Part shown: positions 4,548-46,685 of the stretch, one piece after another
Layout: each line of letters begins with the position of its first letter
How positions within the stretch are numbered: position 1 is the first letter of the stretch
NCBI RefSeq assembly: GCF_000011345.1
Contig: NC_004113.1
Span: 1,984,001-2,048,000, forward strand
Origin: Thermosynechococcus vestitus BP-1
GTDB taxonomy: Bacteria; Cyanobacteriota; Cyanobacteriia; Thermosynechococcales; Thermosynechococcaceae
Direction: 5' to 3'
Length of the DNA stretch: 64,000 bases
Notes under the pieces: generated by a model
Told to the model about the DNA's origin: nothing
Databases searched by the model: none
What the model saw: only the letters and a program-made list of their open reading frames with translations
Program-made: the position numbers and the translations under genes

Positions 4548-5786
4548 ATGCTGAACTGGCGCCGCTTTCTCTGGTTGAGCTGCCTAGCCGCTCTTTTAGT
4601 GGTTGCCTGTGGTACCTCTTCCTCTTCTGTGGCCACCGATGCCCTCAGCCAGAAAATTGAGCAGTTGCGACAGGCGCCCCTTACCGTTGTCGTTGAGAAT
4701 GCCCAAGGCCGTCCGATTCCCAATGCCCGCCTCCAACTGGCGCAGCAAAGCCACGCCTTCCCCTTTGGCGTTGCCCTCGATACAGAGATGTTTCGTCCCA
4801 GCCCCCCTGCGGCTGCTCCTTGGTACAAGCAGACGGCCCAGGAAAACTTCAACGCTGCGGTCCATGAAAATGCCCTCAAGTGGTACCAGTTGGAGCCAGA
4901 ACAGGGGCAGCTGGACTTTACCATGGCTGATACGATTCTTAACTGGGTGCAGGCTCAAGGCTGGCCAATGCGGGGGCATACCCTCTTTTGGGAAGTGGAG
5001 GAGTTTAATCCCCCTTGGCTAAAAACACTGCCGCCCGCCCAACTGCGAGCAGCGGTTAAAAACCATGCCATGACTGTCTGTCACCACTATCGCGGCCGCA
5101 TTAACGAGTTTGATGTCAATAATGAAATGCTCCATGGCAACTTTTTCCGCAGTCGCCTTGGTGAGGACATTGTCAAGGAGATGTTTGAATGGTGCCGTGA
5201 GGGCAATCCCGAGGCCGTTCTCTATGTCAACGACTACGGCATTATTGAGGGCGATCGCCTAAAGGACTATGTTGAGCAGATTCGCGATCTCTTGGCGCAA
5301 GGGGTGCCCATTGGCGGTATTGGTATTCAAGCCCATCTGGAATCTCCCTTGGATGAGGCCAAAATGCAGCGGGCCCTCGATACCCTCGCTCAGTTCAATC
5401 TGCCCTTAAAAATTACCGAAGTGAGTGTGAGTTTGGCGGACGAGCAACAGCAGGCCCAGACCCTGCGCCAGATTTACCGCATTGGTTTTGCCCACCCCGC
5501 AGTCAAGGAAATTTTGCTTTGGGGCTTTTGGGCGGGGAACCATTGGCGTCCCCAAGCGGGACTCTATCGCCAAGACTTTGCTCCTAAGCCAGCGGCGATC
5601 GCCTACCGCAAGCTACTCTTTGAGGACTGGTGGACTAGGGTGAGTGGTCGAACCAATGCCCAAGGCCAATGGCAGGGCCGCGGCTACCTCGGTCGCTATC
5701 GCTTAACCGTTGCTGCCCAAGGCCAAACCCAGACCCGCGAGTTTGAACTCTCCCAAGGGGGGACCACTGTAACCGTGCGGCTATGA
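4548..5786 (+). CDS. GH10 endo-1,4-beta-xylanase-like lipoprotein
   Basis: 412 residues. The N-terminus (RRFLWLSCLAALLVVACG) is a lipoprotein signal with Cys at the lipobox, so the protein is exported and membrane anchored. The body is a glycoside hydrolase family 10 barrel: HENALKWYQLEPEQGQLDF, RGHTLFW, the acid/base Glu193 in FDVNNEMLHGNFF and the nucleophile Glu291 in ITEVSVSL. Both catalytic Glu are present, so activity on a beta-1,4-xylan or related glycan is plausible. The C-terminal approximately 60 residues look like a small beta domain. It lies 44 bases after the ABC ATPase on the same strand and ends 2 bases from the convergent aldehyde dehydrogenase. The real substrate in a phototroph is unknown. 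Confidence 0.85.
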   Translation: MLNWRRFLWLSCLAALLVVACGTSSSSVATDALSQKIEQLRQAPLTVVVENAQGRPIPNARLQLAQQSHAFPFGVALDTEMFRPSPPAAAPWYKQTAQENFNAAVHENALKWYQLEPEQGQLDFTMADTILNWVQAQGWPMRGHTLFWEVEEFNPPWLKTLPPAQLRAAVKNHAMTVCHHYRGRINEFDVNNEMLHGNFFRSRLGEDIVKEMFEWCREGNPEAVLYVNDYGIIEGDRLKDYVEQIRDLLAQGVPIGGIGIQAHLESPLDEAKMQRALDTLAQFNLPLKITEVSVSLADEQQQAQTLRQIYRIGFAHPAVKEILLWGFWAGNHWRPQAGLYRQDFAPKPAAIAYRKLLFEDWWTRVSGRTNAQGQWQGRGYLGRYRLTVAAQGQTQTREFELSQGGTTVTVRL

Positions 5787-10220: not shown

Positions 10221-10238
10221 TCAAAGCAACGCACTGAA

Positions 10239-10913
10239 TTAAATTTCAGCCCATTTCCGCAGCAAGTTAGAGTACACCTTGCACAAGAGATCAAAATCTA
10301 CCGTCTTTCCCTGCTTTTCAAAAAGGCTGCGGCGAACAGTATCTAACTCAAAAAGAAGTTCCCGCTCTAGGGGATCACGGATTAAACTTTGCACCCAAGC
10401 CACTGCAACAAGACGCACACCCTTGCTCACTGTCTCCACCCGATGAAGAAAGATGGAAGGATAAACAATCATTGATCCCGCAGGCAGCTTAAAATACTGC
10501 TCTCCTAGGCTAGTATCGAGCACTAAGGCACCCCCTTCATAGGCGAAAGGATCATTTAGAAAAATTGTCAAGGACACATCAGAGCGTCTTAGTTGATCGC
10601 CACTTCCCATAAGGGCATTATCTGTATGGGTACCGTAGGCCATCCCTACTTCATAGCGGCTAAACAGAAGTGGGCCAATGATCTTGGGTTGGACATAGGC
10701 TTGAAAGAGCTGATTTCTGCTTAAGGCAGAGAGTACAATTTCTGAGGCAACTCGGTACTCCTCCCCCTCCTGCACCAGTTGTTGATTGTCCTTAACCGTT
10801 TTGGCATAGATGCCGGCAGTCCATTTGCCGTCCTCAAAGACCCCTGCTTGCAGGAGGGTATTGAGCTGGTTCAGTTCCTCAGTGGTCAGTACTCGATCAA
10901 TTTGCAGCAGCAT
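10239..10913 (-). CDS. piuC: PiuC/YbiX-like Fe(II)/2-oxoglutarate dioxygenase (PKHD type)
   Basis: 224 residues. The double-stranded beta-helix motifs are present: HxD in YGTHTDNALM (His96, Asp98), distal His157 in FLHRVETV and the 2-oxoglutarate-binding Arg167 in KGVRLVAVAW. The Fe2+-dependent dioxygenase family YbiX/PiuC is usually next to TonB siderophore receptors and under iron control. No receptor is seen here. The start MLLQIDRVLTTEELNQL at 10913 matches the family; an ATG 36 bases earlier would add a Lys-rich tail. It is followed closely by the PepSY-type gene. Its substrate is unknown for the family. Confidence 0.88.
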   Translation of the reverse strand: MLLQIDRVLTTEELNQLNTLLQAGVFEDGKWTAGIYAKTVKDNQQLVQEGEEYRVASEIVLSALSRNQLFQAYVQPKIIGPLLFSRYEVGMAYGTHTDNALMGSGDQLRRSDVSLTIFLNDPFAYEGGALVLDTSLGEQYFKLPAGSMIVYPSIFLHRVETVSKGVRLVAVAWVQSLIRDPLERELLFELDTVRRSLFEKQGKTVDFDLLCKVYSNLLRKWAEI

Positions 10914-44205: not shown

Positions 44206-44505
44206 CTAGCGATCGCTAAAATCGCCATTCGTCAGCTCATCACCGTCGTAGTGCTCTTCCTCTGGCTCCAAATCCTCCAGGACGGGATTCAAGAGCACTG
44301 CCATCTCAGCCTCATGGTGGGTGAGCCACTGGCCTTGGGTACGGAACCAGCGGGGCGGGTTAATGTAGCGAGCATAGTACCACGGCGGGGCAGTGGGCTG
44401 GGTAATTTCCGCCTGTACTCGAATTTTCTCACCCGGATAGTAGGCATCTTCGGGTTCCACTTCTAACCACACTTTTTGGCCGATGATTTCTTGGGGGAGC
44501 ATCAT
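44206..44505 (-). CDS. Conserved small acidic protein of unknown function
   Basis: 99 residues from tandem ATGs (44505/44502). Soluble, acidic at the C-terminus (EDLEPEEEHYDGDE). The N-terminal IIGQKVWLEVEPEDAYYPGEK with IRVQAEITQP suggests a small beta-barrel. I do not recognise a named family, though the regular codon use and HIP1 nearby suggest a real gene. Its stop lies 173 bases upstream of the rimP terminator structure on the same strand. Confidence 0.6.
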   Translation of the reverse strand: MMLPQEIIGQKVWLEVEPEDAYYPGEKIRVQAEITQPTAPPWYYARYINPPRWFRTQGQWLTHHEAEMAVLLNPVLEDLEPEEEHYDGDELTNGDFSDR

Positions 44506-44661: not shown

Positions 44662-45307
44662 CTATTCGCCATCGCCCACCGCCAAGGAGGGGTAGGGCTG
44701 CTGCCGTTTCGGATCCTCGAGCTTCAGGGAAATGAGTCCAGCACAGAGGACAAACACCATTGAAACCCACAGACAGCCGACAATGCCCCAAATTTGATAA
44801 ATAAAGCCGGAGAGGACAGTTCCTGCTAGTCGTCCCCCAGAGTTGGCCATGTAGTAAAAGCCAACATTCAAGGCCACTTTTTCATCGTCAGTGTAGGCCA
44901 GCACCAAGTAGGAGTGGACTGCCGAATTGATGGCAAAAATCAAACCAAAGAGGAGCAACCCACCAATAATGACGGCATTGGCATCCCAGTTGCTCAGCGG
45001 TACGGAATTTCCCGGAGCATTCGAGAACAATCTCGACTCCCCGTTGTTGCCAAGGTGCCTCTGCCGGGGTTTTCGCTTCCGAAAAGCTAATGATCTGATC
45101 GTTGATGGCGATCGCCCCCTCCTTGGCTTGGATGGTCTGGGGCCAACGGCCATGAACCGAATCAAACTCCAGTAAATGGGCAGCCGCGCTCGTGCCTCCC
45201 TTAATCTCGTTGATGTGGCGAAAATCCAGTTCAGGCCAACCCCACGCCGCACGCAAGACCAAGCGCCCAATGCGGCCAAAGCCATTAATGCCGATGCCAA
45301 CGCCCAT
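44662..45307 (-). pseudogene. Relic of a GAPDH-arsJ arsenic-efflux operon, fused by deletion
   Basis: From ATG 45307 the sequence is the N-terminus of a GAPDH of the ArsJ-associated type: [56 protein letters not shown]. Near 45000 it breaks and, in another frame, continues as the C-terminal approximately 105 residues of an ArsJ-like MFS carrier: [58 protein letters not shown], stop at 44662. GAPDH makes 1-arseno-3-phosphoglycerate and ArsJ exports it. The catalytic Cys domain of GAPDH and most of ArsJ are gone, so neither works. Confidence 0.78.
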
Positions 45308-45394
45308 CGTTGCTGCTTTAGCGGCACACCCCCACGTTATTTCAAGTCATCTTGGATTGTCAATCGGCAAAAGTGCTTCCCTAAGCGAATGGAC

Positions 45395-46006
45395 CTAAAC
45401 GTAAGGGCAGGGGGTTTGACTCGGATCCTGCCAACAGGGGAGCAGCGGCGGCTGAGGAATCGGCTGGGCAGGGGTACCAAAGACCATTTCGCAACTGTAG
45501 TCCTTAAAGTTCGGCGTCATCGTCAAAGGAATGCCGAGTCGCTGTCGAAAAAATTGCTCGGTGGGTTTTTTGCACAGGTTCATACACAACGCCATACATT
45601 GGGATTCAGCCAAGTAGCGGCATTTTTGGATGCGCACACCACTGTGTTGCCATTGGGGGAGTTGATTTGGGGGAATAACCTCGACCCAGTAGCGATCGCT
45701 GGCACCCACTAACCAGCCTGTGAGGCGGGTAGCAAACCAGGCATTCCACTCACAGACCCAGCGGCTGGGCCGAAAGAGTTTGCGTATCAATGTACTCATC
45801 ATTGGTGGGATGAGGCGATCAAAGACCGTGGCCACAATGGCCTGTTGCTGCGCGGGCGATCGCCCCCGTTGCAGTTGTCGGGTGATCTCAATAAAGCCAA
45901 CATAGTCCCACCGCTGTGGTGCAACCCCAATGGCACTGGCGATCGCTCGGATCAGCCGCGCCAAGCACCACCGCTCTAGCCAGCTCAGGGACTCAGGAGG
46001 CATCAT
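45395..46006 (-). CDS. DUF4033 / D27-like carotenoid isomerase family protein
   Basis: 203 residues. The C-terminal half has the DUF4033 signature: CRYLAESQCMALCMNLCKKP, then TEQFFRQRLGIPLTMTPNFK, with clustered cysteines. In plants the D27 member isomerises all-trans to 9-cis beta-carotene for strigolactone synthesis; what cyanobacterial members do is not settled to my knowledge. The start is ATG 46006 (or 46003), lying inside the last codons of the HEAT membrane protein gene, which implies coupled translation. Confidence 0.78.
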   Translation of the reverse strand: MMPPESLSWLERWCLARLIRAIASAIGVAPQRWDYVGFIEITRQLQRGRSPAQQQAIVATVFDRLIPPMMSTLIRKLFRPSRWVCEWNAWFATRLTGWLVGASDRYWVEVIPPNQLPQWQHSGVRIQKCRYLAESQCMALCMNLCKKPTEQFFRQRLGIPLTMTPNFKDYSCEMVFGTPAQPIPQPPLLPCWQDPSQTPCPYV

Positions 46007-46685
46007 CAAGGTGATCAAGCACCTCAAGGGCAGCACGACGAACCACTGCATCCCTTTCCTGTCCCAGTAGCAGATATAGCGCTTCCTGCACCTGGCGACG
46101 CTCTGCCCCCTCAGGGAGGCGAGCTAATTGGCGAATGGCCACTAGCCGATGCAGGGGCTGCGGATGGGTCAGATCAGTCAACCACTGGGACACCTGTTGG
46201 GTCTGCTGCTGCTGTTGCAGTTGACCGCTGATTGTGCCGAGAAGGGCAATGACACCCATCAGGAGGATGCCAAGGAGGACAAGGGCGACCACCAACCAGG
46301 GATCTGCTGTCTGCTGACCGATATGCAACAGGGTATAGGTACCTAAACAGGCCAGCAGACCCGCCACCACCGTAGACGCCAAGGGATGATGTAGCCATTG
46401 GTACATCCGTTGGCGAAGGTTTTGCCATAGGGTCAAAAGTCGGCGTTGCCAGCGACTGAGGAGAAAAATCGTACCCACACCACTCAGGGTTGCCAGCAGT
46501 AGGGGGCCGTCCGTTTGCCACAGGAGCTGGCCTGCCCCCAGGGCACCAATGAGTAGCAAAAGACGCTCCGACAGTAGATTAAAAACAAAAGATTTCCAGC
46601 GCAGCCGTTGCGATCGCCTTTGGCGCAGCGGAGTTGAGCGCCGGTGAGGTCGCGGCAAGGACCATTTCGCCCAAGAGGTAACCAT
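45993..46685 (-). CDS. Membrane protein with C-terminal HEAT-like repeats
   Basis: 230 residues. A basic N-terminus (RPHRRSTPLRQRRSQRLRW) precedes four hydrophobic segments in two pairs (about 40-75 and 100-155). The C-terminal approximately 70 residues (HRLVAIRQLARLPEGAERRQ; VVRRAALEVLDHLDDAS) are two HEAT-like helical repeats, a protein-binding scaffold. The stop overlaps the start of the D27-like gene. I infer that the two proteins act together at a membrane, but no function is known. Confidence 0.65.
   Translation of the reverse strand: MVTSWAKWSLPRPHRRSTPLRQRRSQRLRWKSFVFNLLSERLLLLIGALGAGQLLWQTDGPLLLATLSGVGTIFLLSRWQRRLLTLWQNLRQRMYQWLHHPLASTVVAGLLACLGTYTLLHIGQQTADPWLVVALVLLGILLMGVIALLGTISGQLQQQQQTQQVSQWLTDLTHPQPLHRLVAIRQLARLPEGAERRQVQEALYLLLGQERDAVVRRAALEVLDHLDDAS

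Follow-up and report, generated by a model that had tools for sequence, protein, structure and literature searches.

Composition of the locus

The locus described here lies within a window of 64,000 nucleotides (the whole stretch of DNA that was analysed) from the 2,593,857 bp genome of Thermosynechococcus vestitus BP-1, and bare coordinates refer to this window. On the minus strand, the gene order is a HEAT-like gene, a D27-like gene, a remnant of gap3 and arsJ, a gene for an acidic protein of 99 aa, rimP and a nusA-like gene (the nusA label was given by eye). The D27-like gene (45395..46051, minus strand; Pfam D27-like_C, E 4e-34) is the upstream neighbour of the remnant, and the small acidic gene (44206..44505, minus strand), which has a match in 28 of the 29 genomes of the family set, is its downstream neighbour. 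Both are open and were used as markers of the site. The HEAT-like gene, upstream of the D27-like gene, has a weak Pfam match below cut-off. These two same-strand ORFs share 59 bp (45993-46051); an overlap is also present in relatives, and the start codons are mechanical calls.

Three parts could be identified between the markers, all on the minus strand. Firstly, the 5' remnant of gap3, the gene for the ArsJ-associated GAPDH (44997..45307; Pfam Gp_dh_N, E 1.4e-31), starts with the gap3 ATG at 45307 and covers approximately codons 1-103 (up to 107) of 336. Secondly, the 3' remnant of arsJ (44662..44985) consists of the final ~106 codons and the stop at 44662, in a frame that differs from that of the gap3 remnant. 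Thirdly, the two are joined at a deletion junction (44986..44996), which is the sole surviving copy of an 11-bp direct repeat. The first-pass annotation had described a GAPDH N-terminus fused to an ArsJ C-terminus at 44662-45307, and these limits are exact. Two mechanical ORFs cross the segment on the same strand: one of 139 aa (44888..45307), consisting of the gap3 start and an out-of-frame tail, and one of 221 aa (44662..45327), in which gap3 DNA read out of frame precedes the ArsJ C-terminus.

Among the NCBIfam profiles, the ORF at 44888-45307 matches NF033735 (ArsJ-associated GAPDH) at positions 1-102 of 323 (E 4.7e-36, 124.9 bits), with lower scores for PRK08955 GAPDH (110.7 bits), general type-I GAPDH (90.6) and, further down, PRK07403 (59.2). 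Identity of the gap half to its gap3 counterpart is 80-95% in nine of the ten other genus genomes, reaching 95% in G021 and G026; in G023 it matches a short remnant only (66% over residues 58-98). The two other GAPDH genes of BP-1, located elsewhere as open reading frames (345 and 351 aa), share 42% and 34% identity with it. By bits and identities alike, the gap half is nearer to the ArsJ-associated GAPDH than to housekeeping GAPDH, as had been proposed for the first ~100 residues, and a housekeeping origin is ruled out.

In the case of the second half, the segment 44662-45003 matches NF033734 (MFS_ArsJ) from position 305 or 306 to the last of 392 (E 3.3e-37, 127.5-128.6 bits), in agreement with the earlier assignment of the last ~105 ArsJ residues in another frame. 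Its best matches are 81-95% identical in all ten other genus genomes, and identity to the ArsJ C-termini of G020, G021, G022 and G026 is 89-95%. Both family matches are far stronger than chance would give. With BP-1 itself counted, the arsJ half is matched in all 11 genus genomes, and in the family set in 18 of 29; no second ArsJ match was found elsewhere in the BP-1 genome (E 0.001). The NF033734 match and the ArsJ identities in relatives rule out an origin from an unrelated MFS family.

Full-length cut-offs are 450 bits for NF033735 and 400 bits for NF033734, so that neither remnant scores as a full-length member of its family. The two genes are adjacent, as in a gap3-arsJ operon, yet both are truncated. 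The BP-1 remnant lacks the region around the SCTTN cysteine that intact gap3 copies contain; this cysteine is the catalytic one. The 139-aa ORF would not be expected to yield an active GAPDH, nor the 221-aa ORF, at 127.7 bits against NF033734, a working ArsJ.

The intact operon in relatives and the deletion junction

As a check, the first-pass annotation had suggested looking in related strains for an intact pair flanked by the D27-like gene and the small acidic gene, and several of them have one. In G020, G021, G022, G025 and G026 the order D27-like gene, gap3, arsJ, acidic gene, rimP and nusA is kept and the pair is whole. The closest relatives of BP-1, G021 and G026, both carry it at the site of the BP-1 remnant, and in G021 gap3 (574 bits) and ArsJ (587 bits) both exceed the cut-offs. 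The gap3-arsJ pairs of G021 and G022 share with the BP-1 remnant genes, order and neighbours, with 89-95% protein identity in both halves; unlike the intact G021 operon, BP-1 is without 1,629 bp across the gene boundary, and neither gene is complete.

In the profile search, ArsJ positions 1-392 were found in a single frame in seven of the 11 genus genomes (G019, G020, G021, G022, G025, G026 and G027), and in two frames in G024, split across two contigs in G028, and as remnants in BP-1 and G023. G024 has the usual gene order, with arsJ first in one frame (profile 1-66) and then in another (64-392; L025 ~1517-2769), which may be a third inactivation or an assembly error in this 220-contig genome. 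In G028 the gene order is consistent and a contig ends within arsJ.

Aligned by BLAST with the same region of G021 and G026, the BP-1 region splits into two collinear blocks, which share 11 bases and skip 1,629 bp of the relatives. A perfect 11-bp direct repeat lies at both breakpoints in G021 and G026 and is present as a single copy in BP-1; the junction thus holds one copy of the bounding repeat, as in a short-direct-repeat deletion. A single deletion had already been put forward to explain both ends, and this part stands, while its size, then given as roughly 1.5 kb, is 1,629 bp when measured.

The following sequence of events would account for these observations. In the ancestor, as in the sister species today, the D27-like and the small acidic gene would have flanked a complete gap3 and arsJ. 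A deletion between the 11-bp repeat copy within gap3 and that within arsJ would have removed 1,629 bp including one repeat copy, and with it most of gap3 and about three quarters of arsJ, so that working products are unlikely. The 5' end of gap3 would thereby have been joined out of frame to the 3' end of arsJ, and the out-of-frame fusion would have inactivated both genes in one event. Replication slippage or single-strand annealing would leave such a junction, and the 11-bp repeat fits either. Gene removal by short-repeat deletion is an ordinary and common kind of event. Nothing contradicts the deletion account; a weak point is that the 11-bp repeat is not unique in kind in the intact region: G021 has three separate direct repeats of at least 11 bp, and of up to 14 bp, whose copies are more than 300 bp apart. 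We consider it close to certain that the BP-1 segment is a pseudogenised gap3-arsJ operon made by one short-repeat deletion of 1,629 bp.

A collapse across the 11-bp repeat during sequencing or assembly would look identical, and a single assembly of the species was examined. However, assembly is as a rule not misled by repeats of only 11 bases, and the accessible part of a 2020 genome comparison (PMC7005997) implies that the operon is absent both from BP-1 and from NIES-2134, a relative at 99.0% ANI. Such an artefact is therefore extremely improbable.

G019 and G027 carry an intact gap3-arsJ pair at another site, common to both over ~3.8 kb, and this different position indicates at least one move or gain of the operon within the genus. 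At this other site the pair occupies L030 6947-9228 and L032 6770-9046; in L030 it lies upstream of a carboxypeptidase-like gene (label by eye). Movement of this sort would leave room for a pair that reached BP-1 already broken by gene transfer, or for a segment built from unrelated pieces. The gene trees, however, place both halves with G021 and G026 (support 0.855 and 0.976), the flanking genes group with the same two genomes (0.818 to 1.000), and the site is shared, which leaves next to no probability for an origin by transfer or from unrelated pieces and favours deletion in place.

Age of the BP-1 loss and a second loss in G023

To describe the decay of the remnants, private changes were counted, that is, positions where one genome differs while all other compared copies agree. 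Pooled over both halves, the BP-1 remnants show 4 amino-acid and 6 silent private changes, as compared with 22 and 30 summed over the five intact lineages G020, G021, G022, G025 and G026 (Fisher p 1.0; G024 left out for its frame change and G028 for its contig end). Under neutrality along the whole branch, an amino-acid excess of ~3:1 is expected, from which the BP-1 counts differ (binomial p 0.016). Read each in its own frame, neither remnant has a further stop or frameshift. This pattern of substitutions suggests that the BP-1 deletion probably occurred late on the branch and is young compared with the divergence from the sister species. The first-pass annotation had called the segment a fossil: a remnant it is, but the old age that the word implies is not what these counts suggest.

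These small counts could alternatively reflect continuing constraint on the remnants. On this alternative, selection would have kept the 139-aa or the 221-aa ORF as a functional fusion or truncated protein; both ORFs are indeed open, and the private changes lack the neutral excess. Nevertheless, the halves are in different frames, so that no one ORF holds both conserved parts, and neither ORF comes near its family cut-off. A late deletion explains these counts without selection, and indels disrupt the other remnant, that of G023. Continuing selection is not required by the substitution counts and was rejected, and a functional ORF is very unlikely. A late deletion is the simplest reading.

In G023 (L033), the neighbours are open and the pair is reduced to an N-terminal part of gap3, a middle part of gap3 and the end of arsJ. 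Like BP-1, this genome lost the operon by deletion at the shared site; unlike BP-1, it did so via three deletions, with breakpoints other than those of BP-1, and its pieces contain six frame-breaking indels of 1, 1, 2, 4, 5 and 7 bases (tallied visually from the alignment). It also shows an excess of amino-acid change: 15 of its private changes alter an amino acid and 2 are silent, as compared with 28 and 55 in the five intact lineages (Fisher p 6e-5; the same columns of a trimmed DNA alignment, with the same intact set of G020, G021, G022, G025 and G026). A single deletion shared by both genomes is ruled out, since G023 keeps gap3 sequence that is lost in BP-1 and vice versa, and neither allele can derive from the other. 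A tree built from four flanking genes joins G023 to G022 (support 0.973) and places BP-1 with G021 and G026 (1.000). The loss in G023 is independent of the one in BP-1; its remnant is far more decayed, and the substitutions and indels suggest that the loss is older.

In both losses the final ~106-120 arsJ codons are retained (44662-44985 in BP-1; L033 ~10227-10613), and their right breakpoints are ~24 bp apart in G020 coordinates. The sparing of the arsJ 3' end may be due to chance or to a putative promoter for the downstream acidic gene.

Arsenate export and other arsenic genes in the genus

The original work on GAPDH and ArsJ is reportedly that of Chen et al. 2016. According to the accessible part of PMC5930303, GAPDH of Pseudomonas aeruginosa (DK2) makes 1-arseno-3-phosphoglycerate from arsenate and ArsJ exports the product, and GAPDH and ArsJ of Halomonas GFAJ-1 are reported to act likewise. 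The two halves in BP-1 fall in the families named after these systems. The systems of DK2 and GFAJ-1 are intact and, in the same part of that source, are reported to contribute to arsenate resistance, whereas that of BP-1 is destroyed. Because characterised bacteria use GAPDH and ArsJ for export, the BP-1 lineage most likely lost, by analogy, an arsenate-export route. Past arsenic resistance in the lineage, as had also been proposed, would likewise follow from families characterised elsewhere.

The accessible part of the 2020 genome comparison (PMC7005997) reports an ArsJ-GAPDH operon in CL-1, NK55 and S. lividus; as the operon is named only for these, its absence is implied in BP-1, NIES-2134 and SCTE542. 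No description of the remnant itself was found among the titles and abstract openings listed for open-licence papers on arsJ and on Thermosynechococcus arsenate. Absence from BP-1 was already implied in that part of PMC7005997; what is added here is the exact event and the finding that the loss recurred, with remnants whose relative ages can be judged. The deletion accounts for a widely used hot-spring cyanobacterium being without an arsenate-export operon that is present in its nearest relatives, and G021 (operon present) and BP-1 (operon absent) form a natural pair for testing the role of the operon in a phototroph.

Profiles for other arsenic genes were searched in the 11 genus genomes. The arsenate reductase profiles ArsC PF03960 and TIGR02689 had no match in any of the 11, the latter being a weak test, as none of the 14 genomes of its control (0 of 14) reached the cut-off. 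For arsenite methyltransferase (NF008823), all 11 genomes gave a match and none exceeded the cut-off. PF02040 (ArsB) also matched in all 11 and exceeded its low cut-off in ten, BP-1 among them, where the match is weak and just over cut-off (E 8e-5, 400-aa frame) and could represent a general transporter that is not arsenic-specific. Apart from this weak match, the profiles used revealed no other arsenic gene in BP-1. This inventory is no proof of arsenic sensitivity, as thioredoxin-type reductases (low-molecular-weight phosphatase family) were outside the search.

The arsenite exporter Acr3 was over cut-off in two of the 11 genomes, G019 and G024. In G024 acr3 is intact (L147 4573-5685) and adjoins a carB-like gene (label by eye). 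G020 has a remnant in which codons ~1-78 are joined to ~248-339 (L143 ~4580-5085), and G023 a remnant of about 36 codons (L145 ~4904-5011) whose lesion differs from that of G020. A distant full-length match below cut-off in G027 is 21.6% identical to the G019 protein. With gap3-arsJ lost at least twice at one locus, and acr3 broken in two ways, in G020 and G023, at a site where it is whole in G024, arsenic export may be undergoing parallel loss across Thermosynechococcus, a tentative reading to which we give somewhat less than even weight. If it is true, the genus would offer a set of arsenic-export losses of differing age that could be set against arsenic chemistry in the springs of origin.

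The profile search gave no Acr3 match in BP-1, G021, G022, G025, G026 and G028, and the carB-neighbour site is without an acr3 match in the first five of these. In BP-1, this site (C1:2427000-2433500; L159 ~1729-1763) consists of ~33 bp between matched flanks.
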